From a virus: DNA of 23,532 nt. Where the stretch lies: positions 1-23,532 of IMG/VR virus record IMGVR_UViG_3300012096_000019; one strand, given 5' to 3'. Both the position numbers and the translations under genes were made by a program. The notes beneath the pieces are model-generated. The model worked only from the letters and a program-made list of their open reading frames with translations, was not told where the DNA came from and made no database searches. This document shows, one piece after another, positions 9,131 through 23,532 of this stretch (within the stretch, counting starts at the first letter, position 1; each line of letters opens with the position of its first letter).

Positions 9131-9511
9131 ATGAATAGAAGAAAATTCTTTAATTTCCTAGGAAGTGCAGTAATTGGAACTGTAATAGCTTTAAAGCTTC
9201 CAGATGCTATTGCTCCATTAAATAATTTAATTAGAGAAAGAGGAATCTCTTTTCAAGCGTTGTATGAAGCTTATCAAGATTGTGTAAATAAAATAGGGGA
9301 ACCAACTTCTATTGTTATTTCAAAGAAGAATTACGAAAGAATTCATCAGATGTTCGAACCTCAGTATAGATTTGATAATGCCGAGGCACAGCATTTAGTA
9401 TTTCAAAATGCTATAATTCAATCCATAGATAGCGTAGCAGTAGAAGAAGATGAATTTATAGTATTTGCAGGAAAGTATAGAAATCATGCTAAGAAATATA
9501 GTTTTGTATAA
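9131..9511 (+). CDS. Twin-arginine/signal-anchored protein with capsid-like domain
   Basis: 126 aa. MNRRKFFNFLGSAVIGTVIA looks like a twin-arginine signal (RRKFF then a hydrophobic helix), though the consensus is short. Residues 44-115 align by eye with the major capsid protein encoded at 17116: LYEAYQDCVNKIGEPTSIVI against LDRAYKLAKHGPEEPDLIIV, then FEPQYRFDN against LEPAYRYTQ, FQNAI against FHNAY, and EFIVFAGKY against VFFIVNTNH. So it resembles part of the HK97-fold core with a membrane or export signal in front. It lies just before TerL, with 2 bases between. Its role is unknown; capsid-domain proteins with a Tat-like N-terminus do occur in some phage genomes as far as I recall. Confidence 0.55.
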   Translation: MNRRKFFNFLGSAVIGTVIALKLPDAIAPLNNLIRERGISFQALYEAYQDCVNKIGEPTSIVISKKNYERIHQMFEPQYRFDNAEAQHLVFQNAIIQSIDSVAVEEDEFIVFAGKYRNHAKKYSFV

Positions 9512-9513
9512 AA

Positions 9514-11760
9514 ATGTATAATGAAGCAATAATTGAAAAACGTCTAGAGAAGATTAAGCCTACTCTTAATTTTGAACTAACTCGCCATTCTTATCTAGAA
9601 ACCTCACGTGCAGTTGATTACATTAATAATTTAATAGATTTTGATTTATACGAACAATCTCTAGTAGATAAATCAAGAACTAAAATCGAATTTAAAGATC
9701 CAGCTTCAAAGAAAGAATTCTATTCAGAACGAATACAAAATTTCATAAGAAATGAAACTATTCTTTCTAAATTTGATTGTTTCTATTGGATGGAAAGATA
9801 TTATAAAATATCAGATATTAGAAACATATTTATCCAATATCAACATAATAATGCACAAAAAGTATGGGCGCGAATTCATAGTAGACTAGAAGGCTTATTT
9901 CGCGCAATTAGAACTTTAGATTTAAAAGCTAGACAAGTTGGAAAAACCACATTCGCGCAAGGAGTTGTTGAGCATAGGCTACAATTTTATACAGATATAA
10001 AATCTATGATTGCTAGTAAAGATGAAACTTCTACTGGCAAAATGGCTGATATGTTTGTAGATTCTATGAATAAACAACCATTTTGGCTTCGACCACAATT
10101 AAGAAATTTTGAAAGAGGAAGTGAATATGTATATGATAATGGCTCTGGTTTATACTTAGGTTGGGGAACTCAAAGAACATTAGCGAAAGGAACCACTGTA
10201 ACTGTTTCTCACTTATCTGAAATTGCTAATTTTAAATACTTCGTAGAAGCTATAGAAAATGCGCTAATTCGCGCAATGCATGAAACTATTTGGCTTTTGC
10301 AGATTTTCGAAGGAACTGCTGAAAGAAGAGACGATGATTTTCATAAGAAAGTTAAAGAAACAATTCAAAGTATGGAAAGAGGAACTTCTTCTCTTTATTT
10401 CTCATTCATCCCATATTTTGTTAGGGCTGATATTTATCCCCCTCCTGCATATATTAGTGGTCGGACTTCTGCTTTTGCTAATTTTATATCTTCTACCGAA
10501 ACACTAATTCATGCAAAGAAGGCAGAAAATTGGGTAAAAGCAAATATAGATATGCGAGAAGTTCTTGGCTCAAATTGGCAGATGAGCCTAGAAACAATGT
10601 TTTGGTATGAAACTGAAAGAAATGCGGCGATTGCACGAGATGAACTCGGAGTATTTTTATCTCAAGTTCCCGCAGATTGGGAAGAAGCATTTCAACATGC
10701 TGGAAAAACTATTTATCCAATAGAACTAATTACTTCCTATTCTAATTATGCGCAAGGGATTATTCCAGAAGTTTATAAATTAAGAGGAGATCAAAATGAA
10801 ATATCTCCTGATTTTTTTCCAAGTTCTAGCGAAATACTTGAAAACGGTAGGAAAATTCCAATTAGAACGAATTGGACTTCTGCAACACCTGCAAGCGATT
10901 ATGAATTGGTTCAAGTAAGATTTGAAGGATGGGATAAATTTGATCCTATTAATAAAATATTAATTTGGCAGCATCCTAATGTTAAGTATGAATATGGCTG
11001 TGGAGTTGATACTTCTGATGGATTAGGAAGAAAAGTTAGTGATAATGCTATTATTGAGATTTTGCGAAAAGGAACTCCTGAGTTAAAAGATGCACAAGTT
11101 TGCGAGTTTGCTTCTCCTGATTTACAGCAAAAAATAATGTGGCCATTTTTACTTGCATTAGTTACTTATTATTCTCCTAAAGCTCAGTTATTATTGGCTA
11201 TAGAATGTAATAAAGGTTATGAGTTACAAAATGCAATGACTAATCATGGCTGGTGGAATTTGCATAAAGCCATTGATGAAGGGAAAATCGGTCAAGATTT
11301 AAGTAAGATTAATAAATATGGATTTGAAACTAATGGAGCCACTAGAGGAGCTTTAATAGATAATTTCTCTACATTCTTTAAAGGCATGTGGATTGATTTA
11401 TATTCTATGCCGCTAATTGGAGAAATTAAAGATTTGCAGAAAATCCGAACTATATCTGCTATTTCAAAGCTTCAAAGAGATAGAATCGAGGGTGGATTAT
11501 CTGGTGATGATCGATTTATGGCAACTGGAATAATTCTATATTCAATGCATAGAATGGAAATGATGGGATTTGAAAAAGCTAGTTGGCAAAAAAGATTAGA
11601 GAATGAGAATTCTAAGTTTGAAATAAAAAGTTTTCCCGGCTATGAATTTGAGCAAGCTGGAAAAATAGATGTTGACTCTGCCTCGTTTTCTGCTACAATA
11701 GAAGATAACCAGAATTATTTAGATAATCTAGATAGAAATCTAGGCAACGCAGACTGGTGA
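9514..11760 (+). CDS. terL: Terminase large subunit (packaging ATPase and nuclease)
   Basis: The motor that cuts and pumps phage DNA into the procapsid through the portal. 748 aa. ATPase domain: ARQVGKTT at residues 139-146 is the terminase-type Walker A (RQxGKT), and SHLSEIAN at 232-239 is the Walker B region with catalytic Glu 236. RNase H-like nuclease: GVDTSDG with Asp 499, AIECNKG with Glu 564 and SGDDRFMA with Asp 665/666 give the three acidic metal ligands. About 130 residues precede the Walker A, longer than in many TerL proteins. It starts 2 bases after the previous gene and has no strong SD. Both domains look intact. I am sure of the function. Confidence 0.95.
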   Translation: MYNEAIIEKRLEKIKPTLNFELTRHSYLETSRAVDYINNLIDFDLYEQSLVDKSRTKIEFKDPASKKEFYSERIQNFIRNETILSKFDCFYWMERYYKISDIRNIFIQYQHNNAQKVWARIHSRLEGLFRAIRTLDLKARQVGKTTFAQGVVEHRLQFYTDIKSMIASKDETSTGKMADMFVDSMNKQPFWLRPQLRNFERGSEYVYDNGSGLYLGWGTQRTLAKGTTVTVSHLSEIANFKYFVEAIENALIRAMHETIWLLQIFEGTAERRDDDFHKKVKETIQSMERGTSSLYFSFIPYFVRADIYPPPAYISGRTSAFANFISSTETLIHAKKAENWVKANIDMREVLGSNWQMSLETMFWYETERNAAIARDELGVFLSQVPADWEEAFQHAGKTIYPIELITSYSNYAQGIIPEVYKLRGDQNEISPDFFPSSSEILENGRKIPIRTNWTSATPASDYELVQVRFEGWDKFDPINKILIWQHPNVKYEYGCGVDTSDGLGRKVSDNAIIEILRKGTPELKDAQVCEFASPDLQQKIMWPFLLALVTYYSPKAQLLLAIECNKGYELQNAMTNHGWWNLHKAIDEGKIGQDLSKINKYGFETNGATRGALIDNFSTFFKGMWIDLYSMPLIGEIKDLQKIRTISAISKLQRDRIEGGLSGDDRFMATGIILYSMHRMEMMGFEKASWQKRLENENSKFEIKSFPGYEFEQAGKIDVDSASFSATIEDNQNYLDNLDRNLGNADW

Positions 11761-11767
11761 TTGAAAT

Positions 11768-12034
11768 ATGAGTGAAGAAATAGTTTCTGTTATTTTAGTG
11801 CCAAAAACAATCTTTGAAAAAGCAAGAGAATTGGCAGATAATAGCAATTATGAAGAAGCTTTAAAGTTATTAGAGGAAAATAAGACAGAAGTAGAAGTTA
11901 ATGAACATGCTAAGCAAATTAGTATGAAAATTCCTAGACCCAGAACTAGGCCGCCAGAATCTTATTATTATTATCAGAAACATGGAAAGCGTCAGAAACT
12001 AACTAGAAAGAGATTAGTAAAAAGAGATGACTAG
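11768..12034 (+). CDS. Hypothetical protein with basic tail, 88 aa
   Basis: The first 55 residues are helical with a TPR-like turn (KARELADNSNYEEALKLLEE). The tail PRPRTRPPESYYYYQKHGKR and following KRLVKRDD is proline- and arginine-rich. It lies 7 bases after TerL and overlaps the lysozyme start by 8 bases. A small accessory of packaging or head assembly is plausible from position; no family recognised. Confidence 0.55.
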   Translation: MSEEIVSVILVPKTIFEKARELADNSNYEEALKLLEENKTEVEVNEHAKQISMKIPRPRTRPPESYYYYQKHGKRQKLTRKRLVKRDD

Positions 12035-12491
12035 ACAAATAAATGAAGCTGGTTTAGATTTAATTAAGTCATTTGAAAAGTGCGTATTAGAGATATATAA
12101 AGATCCAGTTGAATTGTTGACTATAGGATGGGGACATTTAATTAAAGCTCAAGAATCTTTTCCAACAGTTATATCTCAAGAATTTGCAGATAATTTGTTA
12201 AAGAGCGATTTGTTAGAAGCAGAATATTCAATTGAGAAATTAGTAAAGGTTACTTTAACGGATAATGAATTTGCTGCACTAACTTCTTTAGTATTTAATA
12301 TTGGAGCTAAGAATTTTGCTAAAAGTTCTTTATTAGCTAACTTAAATAATAATAATAAATTAGAAGCAGCAAAAAGATTTATGATGTGGAATAAAGCTAG
12401 AAATCCTCATGGACAATTAATTGAACTAAAAGGATTGACTAGGAGAAGGTTAGCTGAGAAAACTTTATTTTTAGATGTGAAAGAAGTTTAG
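12027..12491 (+). CDS. Endolysin, GH24 lysozyme (T4-type muramidase)
   Basis: Cleaves the MurNAc-GlcNAc bond of peptidoglycan. 154 aa, a normal length for this family. The catalytic triad is visible: Glu 17 in IKSFEKC, Asp 26 in YKDPVE and Thr 32 in LLTIGWGH (compare Glu 11, Asp 20, Thr 26 of T4 lysozyme). The C-terminal GLTRRRLAEKTLF is the family's conserved arginine-rich helix. There is no signal peptide, so export needs a holin. It sits between TerL and portal genes, away from any lysis cassette, so a virion-associated or late-released role is also possible. The ATG lies within the end of the previous gene. Confidence 0.92.
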   Translation: MTRQINEAGLDLIKSFEKCVLEIYKDPVELLTIGWGHLIKAQESFPTVISQEFADNLLKSDLLEAEYSIEKLVKVTLTDNEFAALTSLVFNIGAKNFAKSSLLANLNNNNKLEAAKRFMMWNKARNPHGQLIELKGLTRRRLAEKTLFLDVKEV

Positions 12492-12493
12492 AA

Positions 12494-13057
12494 ATGCCTA
12501 TCTATCAATATGAGTGTTGTTTAACTGGCGAAATAGGAGAAGTAATATTTCCTATATCAGAGGCTAATAAGAAATATATAACTTGTCCTACTCATAAAAA
12601 TTCTGTGGATAGGCATGTAGCAGAAAAAATATGGTCACTTCCAACTTATCCTTCTCATGGCAAACCTACAGTTATTTATAGAAATCCTTTAACAGGCGAT
12701 ACTAGAGTTGCAATTTTAGAAAATCAACAAACTCCAGATGGATATGAAAAAATAGAACTGAAAACTCCAATGGCGCGCAGTGCAGCTGAAAAGCAAATGC
12801 AAGAAAGAAATAGTGCAGAAGACGAATATGTTACTGAGAGAAATAGATATTTAAAAGAAGCTACGCAAAAGAATAGACACGATGATTTAAAAGCTAGAAT
12901 GGGAACTTTAACTAAAGATTCTGATAATCCATCAGCAGCAATCGATTTGTTAAAAGCTGGTATGAATAGAAATAGAAAGAAGAAATTGCCGCCGAAGAAA
13001 ACAGAATTTCATTTCGCAGTGAACCACGAAAATAAAAGTAATTTGGACAAAGGCTAA
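12494..13057 (+). CDS. Zinc-ribbon (FmdB-like) protein upstream of portal
   Basis: 187 aa. MPIYQYECCLTGEIGEVIFP resembles the start of FmdB-type zinc ribbons, and YITCPTHKN gives the second half C-x2-H; one of the usual four cysteines is replaced by His. The middle carries SAAEKQMQERNSAEDEY, a long charged helix, and the end is very basic (NRNRKKKLPPKKTEFHF). Such genes often lie between terminase and portal in phages and their role is unknown. It overlaps the portal start by one base (TAATG). Confidence 0.6.
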   Translation: MPIYQYECCLTGEIGEVIFPISEANKKYITCPTHKNSVDRHVAEKIWSLPTYPSHGKPTVIYRNPLTGDTRVAILENQQTPDGYEKIELKTPMARSAAEKQMQERNSAEDEYVTERNRYLKEATQKNRHDDLKARMGTLTKDSDNPSAAIDLLKAGMNRNRKKKLPPKKTEFHFAVNHENKSNLDKG

Positions 13058-20888: not shown

Positions 20889-20916
20889 TTGCCTAAAGAA
20901 GTTCTGCTACTATAAT
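20889..20916 (+). promoter_or_regulatory. Sigma70-type promoter reaching the start codon of the fibre gene
   Basis: TTGCCT (20889-20894), 16-base spacer, TATAAT (20911-20916), then CTGCT and ATG at 20922. Transcription would start on or within one base of the A of the ATG, so the mRNA could be leaderless, as with lambda cI from pRM. No SD lies before this ATG, unlike all the head genes upstream. The perfect -10 makes this the clearest promoter-like site I see in the window. Confidence 0.45.
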
Positions 20917-20921
20917 CTGCT

Positions 20922-22415
20922 ATGAACCATTTCAAAATAATATCCTGCCTAAGCGTGCTAATATTTGCTCTTTTTTGCATCTTATTTTTGCCAAAAACAA
21001 AAGCTGATGTGATTAAGAGCAAATATTTTAATTACGTTGAGAAAGGGGGAAAGACTGTAAAAACCTCTCCTTCTACTCAATTTAAATTAATGGAAACTTA
21101 TCCACAGGCTACAGTTACTGTATATTTAGCAGGAACATTAACTTTAGCTAGTTTGTGGGATGATAGAAATGGATTAGTAATTAAAAATAATCCATTTGTA
21201 GCAGATATAGATTCCTTTTATTATTTCTATGTAGATTGTGGAAAATATGACATTAAGTTCTCTGGAACTGGAGTAGCTGCTCCTTATACTTATGGAGATA
21301 TTTTTGTTTGTGGATTAATAGGTTCTGGAGATGTAGATAATGATGGAACTGGTACTCTTAACTATATTCCAAAATGGACTTCTACTACAACTTTAGGAGA
21401 TTCAGATTTATTTAATATTTCTTCGCAAGTTCGCGCAGGAGCTTCTACTTATTTTGGTTGGACAAATGGATTGCCTTCTGCTCCTTTAGATGTTGCGTTT
21501 TTTAGAACTACAACTGGATTACTTGAAATTAACAGTGGAGCAAATGCAGATTATAGAGATTTATTTCTAAGAAGAATAACTCCTCATCCAAATGCTACTA
21601 TTGCTGGATTAAATTTTGGAACTCTGGCTGGCGATCCATCTTCTGTAGTTGCTGGAGATTGCTGGTATAATACTGTTTTAAATAAGTTTAGATGTTTTGA
21701 AAATGGAACTGTTCAGAATATAATTGAACCGGCTGGAAGTGGAATCACTTCTATAAATACATTAACTGCCGTTTCTCAGTTTCTGGTAACTGGAACTGCC
21801 GGAACAGATTTTAATATTGTCTCTTTAGTAGATACTCACACGTTTAATATTCCATCTGCAAGTTTAACTGCTAGAGGATTAGTAACTATTAATGCGCAAA
21901 CTTTTAATGGAAAGAAAACTTTTAATCCAACAGTTACTTTTTCTGGATTTAATTTTGGAGTTTTGGCTGGAGATCCAGCAACTACTGTAGATGGAGATTG
22001 TTGGTATAACTCTTCTTTAGCAAAATATAGATGTACAGAAGCTAGTGCTAATATAACACTAGATCCAAATCCAAATATTCCATATGACGTAGCAACGCAA
22101 ATACAGGGAATTCCAACTGCCTCTGCCGTTGTTTTGCATTTTGTTGCTGTTAGAAGCTTTAATCTTCCTTCTAGCTTTACTGGAACTAAATGTGATGCGA
22201 TAGTTGCTGCTACAGCACAAACAGATTTTGTTGTAAAAGTTAATGGAGTTACTAAAGGAACTTTAAGATTTGCTATTGCTGGAACCACTTGTTCTATAGT
22301 TTCTGGAACTGCAACTTCTATAGTGGCTGGTGATATTGTAACAATAACTGCGCCAGCTTCGCCAGATGCTACTCTTTCTGATATTGCTCTAGTTCTAAAA
22401 GGGACTATGCTTTAA
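20922..22415 (+). CDS. Tail-fibre-like protein with N-terminal signal peptide
   Basis: 497 aa. MNHFKIISCLSVLIFALFCI then LFLPKTKADV is a Sec-type signal with a probable cut after TKA. The rest is a beta-rich, Gly/Ser/Thr-rich fibre body. Two copies of a Cys-paired repeat occur: FGTLAGDPSSVVAGDCWYN...KFRC near residues 231-260 and FGVLAGDPATTVDGDCWYN...KYRC near 343-372. Such 'GDP...GDCWYN...RC' units occur in phage fibre and collar proteins. Residues from 380 form a separate beta domain (VLHFVAVRSFNLPSSFTGTK). It is odd for a virion protein to be exported. The next gene starts at its last base. Confidence 0.65.
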   Translation: MNHFKIISCLSVLIFALFCILFLPKTKADVIKSKYFNYVEKGGKTVKTSPSTQFKLMETYPQATVTVYLAGTLTLASLWDDRNGLVIKNNPFVADIDSFYYFYVDCGKYDIKFSGTGVAAPYTYGDIFVCGLIGSGDVDNDGTGTLNYIPKWTSTTTLGDSDLFNISSQVRAGASTYFGWTNGLPSAPLDVAFFRTTTGLLEINSGANADYRDLFLRRITPHPNATIAGLNFGTLAGDPSSVVAGDCWYNTVLNKFRCFENGTVQNIIEPAGSGITSINTLTAVSQFLVTGTAGTDFNIVSLVDTHTFNIPSASLTARGLVTINAQTFNGKKTFNPTVTFSGFNFGVLAGDPATTVDGDCWYNSSLAKYRCTEASANITLDPNPNIPYDVATQIQGIPTASAVVLHFVAVRSFNLPSSFTGTKCDAIVAATAQTDFVVKVNGVTKGTLRFAIAGTTCSIVSGTATSIVAGDIVTITAPASPDATLSDIALVLKGTML

Positions 22416-23098
22416 TGAGAAGATTTTTAATCTCTCTATTTTTACTGTTTTCAATCAGCGCACTAGTTTTTCCTCAAGGAGTTATAAAACTTCAGTGGAA
22501 AAATGTAGCAACTGGTTGTTGCTCTTTTGCCGGAGCAGTTGTAACTGATACTTTTGATAGAGCAGATAGTGCAGTAACAATGGGAACTGCAAGTGATGGA
22601 ATTCATGCTTGGACTGCTGGAGATGGAGTTTGGGGAATTTCTTCCAATAAAGCTTATACCGTTACTCCAGGATCAATTCATACTGGTGGTGAAACTTCTT
22701 TTGTTACTGTCAATTATGGTTCTCCAGATGCAGTAATACAAGTTACAATTTCTGGAGAAAGCGCTCATAGTGGTGGAATTGTTTTTAATTATATAGATAA
22801 TAATAACTTTGAAGCTATTTATTCAGTTCCAATTTTTGGTGAATGGAGATATGAATGTGTTGTAGGTGGAGCAGAAGTTGATGCTAGTTTAATGTTTATG
22901 GTTCCAGTTCCAGATCCAACCACTATAAAAGTTATTTTGCATTGCGGAACTCATGAATTTTTTGTTGATGGAGCTTCAGTTTTTGGGCCATTTAATAATT
23001 TAGGTGGCCAATTCAGCAATAAACATGGACTTTCTTCGGCTGACTCAAGTGCATCTGTTAGATGGGATAATTTTTCTATAACTCATTGTACGCCATGA
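22415..23098 (+). CDS. Secreted lectin-like (LamG/concanavalin fold) protein
   Basis: 227 aa. MRRFLISLFLLFSISALVFP is a signal peptide. The mature part reads as a concanavalin A-like beta-sandwich: TDTFDRADSAVTMGT, then DGIHAWTAGDGVWGISSNKA, and GGIVFNYIDNNNFEAIYSV, with the final WDNFSITHC strand. Such domains bind carbohydrate. Seven cysteines include CC at the start, a pair that would be stable in an oxidising space. It overlaps the previous gene by one base. It could be a receptor-binding fibre tip or a secreted glycan binder. Confidence 0.6.
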   Translation: MRRFLISLFLLFSISALVFPQGVIKLQWKNVATGCCSFAGAVVTDTFDRADSAVTMGTASDGIHAWTAGDGVWGISSNKAYTVTPGSIHTGGETSFVTVNYGSPDAVIQVTISGESAHSGGIVFNYIDNNNFEAIYSVPIFGEWRYECVVGGAEVDASLMFMVPVPDPTTIKVILHCGTHEFFVDGASVFGPFNNLGGQFSNKHGLSSADSSASVRWDNFSITHCTP

Positions 23099-23111
23099 TG
23101 GAAATTAAACG

Positions 23112-23532
23112 ATGAAAAGAAATATTTTAATTGCAATTATAGTAATTATAGGTTTAGCCTCTCTTGCATTTCAAACTTCACCCTACGCTAGAAGGATATT
23201 TCCTGTAACTGGAGTTCCCGGATCTTGTCAGGAAAATCAAATTGCTTATGATATGACAGGCCATGCTCTTTATATTTGTACAAATGCTGGCTATCAAGCA
23301 GTATCAACTGGTGGAGCAGGAGCAGTTACTTCTGTTTTTACTAGAACTGGAGCAGTAATTGCAGCTACTAATGATTACACTTGGGCGCAAATTAATAAAG
23401 CAACTTCTAGTTTAGCAGATATTACAACTAAAGCAGAAATTTTAGGAGTCGTAGATTTAACGGATTATGCAACTACTTCTGGAACTGGCACAACTGCGCT
23501 TAAAGCAACTTTCACTTCTTTAACAACAAATG
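23112..23532 (+). CDS. Tail-fibre-like protein with signal peptide, 3' end outside the window
   Basis: 140 codons seen. MKRNILIAIIVIIGLASLAF is a third signal or anchor sequence. GSCQENQIAYDMTGHALYIC resembles the Cys-paired fibre unit of the gene at 20922. GAVTSVFTRTGAVIAATNDY followed by TWAQINKATSSLADITT is the widely found fibre motif 'SVFGRTGAVxxxxxDYTxxQIxxxTSSLADI'. It starts 13 bases after the previous gene. The sequence ends within a Thr/Ser/Gly-rich shaft, with no stop before position 23532. Confidence 0.7.
   Translation, partial: MKRNILIAIIVIIGLASLAFQTSPYARRIFPVTGVPGSCQENQIAYDMTGHALYICTNAGYQAVSTGGAGAVTSVFTRTGAVIAATNDYTWAQINKATSSLADITTKAEILGVVDLTDYATTSGTGTTALKATFTSLTTN

Follow-up and report, generated by a model that had tools for sequence, protein, structure and literature searches.

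The DNA analysed here (the window) spans an entire IMG/VR record (23,532 bp), in which the fibre gene at the 3' end is cut by the record end. Its GC content is 33%, unlike that of other clade members. The window encodes the head module of a tailed phage, comprising TerL (phrog_5989), an endolysin (phrog_7) and the major head protein (phrog_9953), along with a portal-sized protein and connector-like genes. TerL is 25% identical to the TerL proteins of phages Tunturi 1 and Tunturi 2 over 92% of the length, and the portal, MCP and connector also match those of both phages (22-31% identity). These similarities mark the window as a 23.5 kb fragment of a podovirus with two distant cultured relatives, Tunturi 1 and 2, both published as podoviruses that infect Tunturiibacter psychrotolerans, a species of the Acidobacteriota (PMC11924767). 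A nearer relative, L003/G001 (71,351 bp, 79% identity in MCP), was found through the first gene of interest. No prophage was found in the bacterial genome contigs that were scanned. The endolysin gene of the window (12027-12491) has no leader and sits between terminase and portal, which is an unusual site for a lysis gene; the endolysin gene of Tunturi 1 is located after the fibre block.

The conserved position of the fibre block is marked by a connector-like gene, after which come the three genes of interest (Table 1). The first-pass annotation had ascribed Sec signal peptides, paired cysteines and fibre or lectin features to all three. Signal peptides (SPs) were called throughout by a rule-based test of the n-, h- and c-regions, which genes 1 (MNHFKIISCLSVLIFALFCILFLPKTKA↓DV) and 3 (MKRNILIAIIVIIGLASLA↓FQ) pass (pass rates of shuffled proteins, 1.5% and 3.0%, respectively), and which flagged only one other ORF in the window, with a twin-arginine-like leader (9131-9511). 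In gene 2 (MRRFLISLFLLFSISALVFPQG) the n-region and the hydrophobic core are clear, but its SP is a weaker call for want of a strong A-x-A motif at the cleavage site. The leader of gene 1 is 38% identical to that of its L003 ortholog, versus 82% identity in the first 105 mature residues; for gene 3 the corresponding values are 39% for the leader and 61% for the mature part. Past the predicted cleavage sites, gene 1 has eight cysteines (an even number), the visible part of gene 3 has two, and gene 2 has five, so that "paired" is true of genes 1 and 3 only, the count in gene 2 being odd.

Table 1. Coordinates of the predicted features of the fibre block and of the gene upstream of it.
Feature	Position in window	Strand	Basis
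Upstream anchor gene, connector-like, 360 aa	19469..20551	+	70% identical to L003, ~30% to Tunturi_1 gp11 "tail protein"
Gene 1, predicted exported tail fibre/tailspike, 497 aa	20922..22415	+	ORF; C-terminal tail-fibre PHROG; ortholog L003:9411-11225
Sec signal peptide of gene 1, residues 1-28 (predicted cleavage TKA↓DV)	20922..21005	+	Rule-based call, shuffles, leader divergence
Tailspike head-binding (virion-anchor) domain, gene 1 residues 37-130, own conserved C106/C130	21030..21311	+	Model, fold, profile
GDCWYNTVLNKFRC repeat 1, C247/C258	21654..21695	+	Sequence
GDCWYNSSLAKYRC repeat 2, C360/C371	21993..22034	+	Sequence
Gene 1 C-terminal fibre domain, residues 385-497, C424/C457	22074..22412	+	phrog_11585, phrog_7049 (tail fiber), phrog_11660 (tail)
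Gene 2, 227 aa, signal-like hydrophobic N-terminus (residues 2-18), possible minor tail/lectin-like protein	22415..23098	+	
Gene 3, fibre, 140 aa visible, cut by record end	23112..23532	+	Ortholog L003:11690-12991 (433 aa), which also has an SP
Sec signal peptide of gene 3, residues 1-19 (predicted cleavage SLA↓FQ)	23112..23168	+	Rule-based call
Gene 3 fibre motif SVFTRTGAV...NDYTWA	23331..23393	+	Common to fibre genes of unrelated contigs L004-L008

The fibre character claimed earlier is confirmed for gene 1, which has a match to tail-fibre PHROG 7049 (residues 385-497, E 9e-14), two GDCWYN-x8-C repeats and a head-binding domain. Its C-terminal domain is related to tail proteins of phiCbK-like and Erwinia phages, and the spacing of its cysteines (C106/C130, C247/C258, C360/C371, C424/C457) suggests local pairs. 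The fibre evidence for genes 2 and 3 is at motif level or weak: gene 3 shares its motif with other fibre genes, and gene 2 has weak similarity to minor tail proteins of Arthrobacter phages. The lectin fold proposed for gene 2 finds no support here, with no Pfam match, a similarity to minor tail proteins of only E 0.04, and a single-sequence structure model of pLDDT 36 in which a hydrophobic N-terminal helix is predicted. No relatives of gene 2 were found among the viral contigs searched, and a Pfam search with all three genes found nothing. Among these genes, gene 2 makes the weakest case, having a weak cleavage site, an odd number of cysteines and a lectin fold that is putative. Upstream of gene 1 there is no clear ribosome-binding site (20905-20924), and a TATAAT-like hexamer, not seen in L003, lies approximately 5 nt before the ATG; the transcript is possibly leaderless.

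Directly behind the leader of gene 1 is a domain (residues 37-130) that aligns with the N-terminus of Tunturi gp12. Its AlphaFold2 model, built with 33 sequences, has a pLDDT of 85.5, and its best solved matches in Foldseek are tail complexes of two cyanophages, Pam1 and Pan3, with modest E values of 0.02-0.05. A sequence profile of the domain independently finds the Pan3 tailspike (9vyg/9vyh, E 1e-4 to 8e-4) and a Pam1 chain named "Tailspike head-binding domain" (7eeq, E 4e-3); Pfam gives no consistent family. Tailspikes homologous in this domain come from phages of Serratia, Escherichia and Erwinia; in them it starts at residue 10-17 with no leader. Because profile and fold both give a head-binding domain, the leader is placed directly before a domain that anchors the protein to the virion, and predicted cleavage in the window would leave approximately eight residues ahead of the domain, much as in the SP-less relatives. 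Capture of secreted host proteins was considered and rejected, the part behind the leader being a virion-anchor domain. In one SP-less phage (L087) the head-binding domain is found on two separate genes (9919, 13511), one of them with an insertion inside the domain.

The earlier suggestion that related contigs be searched for similar N-termini on fibre genes proved fruitful, in L003, Tunturi 1 and Tunturi 2 among others. At the position of the window's fibre block, L003 has five large genes with leaders (MKNRTVAFLFLFLALSCIFILRSSKA, MKIKIVAILILLSISALA, MKIKSLSIFAIGIIIYSLFLFLCLDNNLTAEAFA, MKFKLFILFMFFICVSIFTIDSYYA, MKLREVLISFFLIILFTTYTKA; the third and fourth, weakly called or missed by the rule, were read by eye), interrupted solely by small ORFs. 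One of these, a stand-alone HNH-endonuclease-like ORF (L003:11385-11681), is inserted between the first and second SP fibre genes. At the equivalent position of Tunturi 1, SPs are predicted for gp12 (1190 aa, MKKFIQLALLFILPAAASA↓Q), gp13, gp14 (annotated as tail spike), gp16 and gp17, which include four large fibres or spikes, and these four large SP proteins all have even numbers of mature cysteines. No credible leader was found on the other structural genes of Tunturi 1 that were tested; one later ORF, annotated as an acetyltransferase, was flagged by the rule. Tunturi 2 has the same pattern of SPs at the fibre position. Another relative (L037) encodes four consecutive SP fibres of 879, 697, 412 and at least 2356 aa. 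In 42 clade loci, SPs were called for 65 of 163 ORFs in the fibre block versus 22 of 444 outside it, where some of the calls will be true exported lysis proteins, for example a lipoprotein-like ORF (L018:18180-18644). Chance leaders were rejected as an explanation by the shuffles (1-3%), the clustering in the fibre block and the conservation. No structural gene tested in Tunturi 3, a podovirus of the same strain as Tunturi 1 (X5P2), or in the siphovirus Tunturi 4 has an SP; therefore export is a trait of the lineage and not a demand of the host. A host requirement for export was rejected on these grounds, the fibres of Tunturi 3 showing no SP on strain X5P2.

Domain scans of viral contigs yielded loci L030-L065 and L067-L110, most of which share a virion chassis like that of Tunturi 1. 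Among 50 distinct domains of the clade, 36 lie directly behind an SP; of the 14 others, 13 are at or near the N-terminus and one is internal. Three loci whose fibres carry SPs (L032, L051, L076) had their duplicate domains removed from this tally. A cysteine pair within the domain (GxC...PxC) is present in 31 of the 36 SP forms versus 1 of the 14 SP-less forms (Fisher p 3e-7, related sequences being treated as independent in this and the other cysteine statistics), and the lone SP-less case (L041) is inside a protein with a signal-like N-terminus. On the best domain tree the signal changed at least seven times, three of these changes being forced by well-supported branches, and the cysteine pair moved the same way as the signal in two to three of the three well-supported independent contrasts. 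Gene 1 and its nearest relative are without the domain pair typical of SP forms and have the other pair, C106/C130. Complete SP fibres (n = 62) have a median of 16.45 cysteines per 1000 aa, and SP-less fibre-like proteins (n = 83) have 4.7 (p 4e-11). Even counts are found in 46 of 59 SP fibres (p 1e-5), with no significant bias in SP-less fibres (25/42) or other genes (126/234). A second disulfide test, on the GDCWYN motif, comprised few cases. Enriched, even numbers of cysteines are a known mark of disulfide-bonded exported proteins, and here they suggest folding with disulfide bonds outside the cytoplasm. The cleavage signature [AG]↓Q recurs in 23 of 38 SPs. The signal and the predicted export are well supported, by several independent sequence signatures. 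The argument of the first-pass annotation for targeting to the envelope, and for an oxidising space to suit the cysteines, is thereby supported, and more strongly than it was first put, the trait recurring in dozens of relatives with these disulfide statistics.

No SP-less fibre-like gene of at least 300 aa was found in the stretch read of about a dozen SP phages (Tunturi 1, L003, L030, L032, L037, L040, L053, L056, L069, L070 and L096), and the fibres of SP-less phages of the clade are mostly SP-less. If SP fibres were only decoration, the virions of these SP phages would seem to be left with no receptor-binding proteins. This lack of alternative fibres, together with the head-binding domain, points to gene 1 being a component of the virion.

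The tailspikes or tail fibres of the phage itself are most likely made as Sec preproteins. The steps that we infer, from export and cleavage to the moment of docking and a place in the virion, would run as follows. During infection, fibre preproteins would cross the inner membrane, signal peptidase I would cut the leader, and the mature fibres would fold and form their disulfide bonds in the periplasm, the heads and short tails being put together in the cytoplasm. Upon disruption of the membrane by holin and endolysin, the compartments would mix and the mature fibres would dock on the tail via the head-binding domain, left at the N-terminus by cleavage. With the leader, the domain, the disulfide signature, clade-wide conservation and lineage-specific presence all read from sequence, a probability of roughly 0.6 is assigned to the proposal that the receptor-binding proteins of the virion leave by Sec, fold in the periplasm and dock at lysis. 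The wider proposal, to which we give slightly better than even odds, is that this clade of short-tailed phages from soil has virions built in two compartments, with cytoplasmic heads and tails and Sec-secreted, disulfide-folded periplasmic receptor-binding proteins joined only at lysis, as a separate route of Caudoviricetes morphogenesis that has been switched on and off several times within one chassis. The accepted view of tailed phages, with assembly in the cytoplasm, counts against the proposal, as do the absence of the common cysteine pair from gene 1 of the window and the odd cysteines and weak cleavage site of gene 2. For P22 it is a classical finding that tailspikes are added in extracts to particles already complete, which makes the docking chemistry plausible.

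Gene 1 resembles other podovirus tailspikes in having a head-binding domain, a C-terminus of fibre type and a site among virion genes. It departs from them, as does the clade, in having a leader, synthesis and assembly in the cytoplasm without one being a usual property of podovirus tailspikes and not a strict definition. Features of a Sec-exported protein are present as well: an n/h/c leader with small residues at -3 and -1 in genes 1 and 3 and most relatives and, at the family level, cysteines suited to an oxidising space. This would be a tailspike family with a different biogenesis.

Sec export would put the fibres outside the cytoplasm before lysis whatever their use, and they might not be (mainly) virion parts, serving instead as a coat on the host surface or as soluble depolymerases or decoys, with a part in blocking superinfection, stripping surface polymer or aiding spread. 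Enzyme-like parts fit such uses (a beta-helix and chitobiase C-terminal domain in Tunturi 1 gp17; Tunturi 2 gp14, annotated as a pectin lyase), and a study of RcGTA TspA has proposed that this tailspike is released in soluble form as well as being carried on the particle (PMC13420450). Yet gene 1 and its relatives keep the head-binding domain right behind the leader, several SP phages show no SP-less fibre with which to equip the virion, the fibre genes lie in the structural block flanked by two connector genes, and neither an outer-membrane anchor nor a lipobox pattern is general among the fibres. Proteins of superinfection exclusion or surface conversion are separate from the virion and have a membrane anchor or an outer-membrane barrel, a description that the fibres do not fit. 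A non-virion use is accordingly considered unlikely, and the surface decoration offered as an option in the first-pass annotation loses ground through the retained virion-anchoring domain and the missing alternative fibres.

The same annotation offered two further options. An uncut hydrophobic N-terminus, acting as a virion anchor or in membrane contact at infection and only resembling an SP, would suit gene 2, with its predicted hydrophobic N-terminal helix and no strong cleavage site, but is very improbable: canonical [AG]↓Q cleavage sites recur, fast divergence is confined to the leader while the residues just past it are conserved, SP-less relatives begin directly with the head-binding domain, and the content and parity of cysteines fit export. 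Assembly at the membrane, in which fibres would dock at the inner membrane and tails would meet them or protrude into the periplasm before lysis, would also unite exported fibres with particles, and export is supported; however, there is no membrane-anchoring segment besides the cleavable leader, nothing in the loci specifically suggests it, and we know of no precedent in podoviruses, so that it appears improbable in this form. The "membrane-assembled fibres" of the first-pass annotation nevertheless come closest among its three options, soluble folding in the periplasm with docking at lysis being preferred.

The tailspikes of Pam1 (PDB 7eeq) and Pan3 (PDB 9vyg/9vyh) have the same head-binding domain by profile and fold and the same structural role, but in them the domain is at the N-terminus with no room for a signal peptide, whereas here a Sec leader comes first and the fibres are cysteine-rich. 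Tailspikes of enterobacterial phages (Serratia MTx and MQ-4, Escherichia ECO1230-10, Erwinia Cronus) have a homologous head-binding domain, but at residue 10-17, with neither a leader nor the domain cysteine pair. Tunturi 1 and 2 (PP887698, PP885685) share gene order, homologous TerL, portal, MCP and connector, and SPs at the fibre position with the window, but are distant in sequence and composition. The published Tunturi description searched (PMC11924767) makes no mention of signal peptides, and its main text contains no virion proteomics. SP endolysins (fOg44), the T4 antiholin RI, lambda Lom and o-spanins are likewise encoded by phages and use the export pathway of the host, but none is a tail fibre or receptor-binding protein, their action being in lysis or in change of the host surface. 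RcGTA TspA is similar in being a spike that can detach and for which soluble release has been suggested too, but no signal peptide or periplasm is mentioned for it, and its N-terminal domain is said to differ from the anchors of phages (PMC13420450). Phage-encoded target proteins of DGRs are reported to lack signal peptides (PMC6199706). No description of Sec leaders on tail fibres was found in the open-access literature searched, which does not prove priority.

The morphogenesis of tailed phages is taught as wholly cytoplasmic. If a set of tailspikes is exported and disulfide-bonded, the last step of assembly would fall during or after lysis, the making of disulfide-rich binding proteins would be explained, and such proteins would already sit in the envelope ahead of lysis, with a possible effect on superinfection as well. 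Both forms of the chassis are found, one having the signal and the other lacking it, and Tunturi 1 (with) and Tunturi 3 (without) share a host strain, which makes the question directly testable. The signature of an SP, a head-binding domain and a GxC...PxC pair could serve to find receptor-binding proteins in phages of little-studied soil bacteria.

The SP-on-fibre trait may reach beyond the clade: a GC-rich viral contig (L006), with none of the virion genes of the clade in the part of it that was read, has a fibre-like gene (9149-12202) whose product begins with an SP (MRRLSFLLALFALLTLSARA↓Q) and contains the RTGAV motif, followed by a small SP gene (12209-12604). The other flagged ORF of the window (9131-9511) is a small gene just upstream of the terminase, with a twin-arginine (Tat-like) leader (MNRRKFFNFLGSAVIGTVIALKLPDAIAP), and the small gene at this place in L020 (11619-11900) has one as well (MNRRRFLELLGTAALGSGIVYSF). 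Tat-like leaders are also found on small genes of relatives (L070:1122-1385) and within fibre blocks (L032:14649; L040:15564 and 16664; L053:15686), and all of these genes possibly encode phage proteins exported by the Tat pathway.
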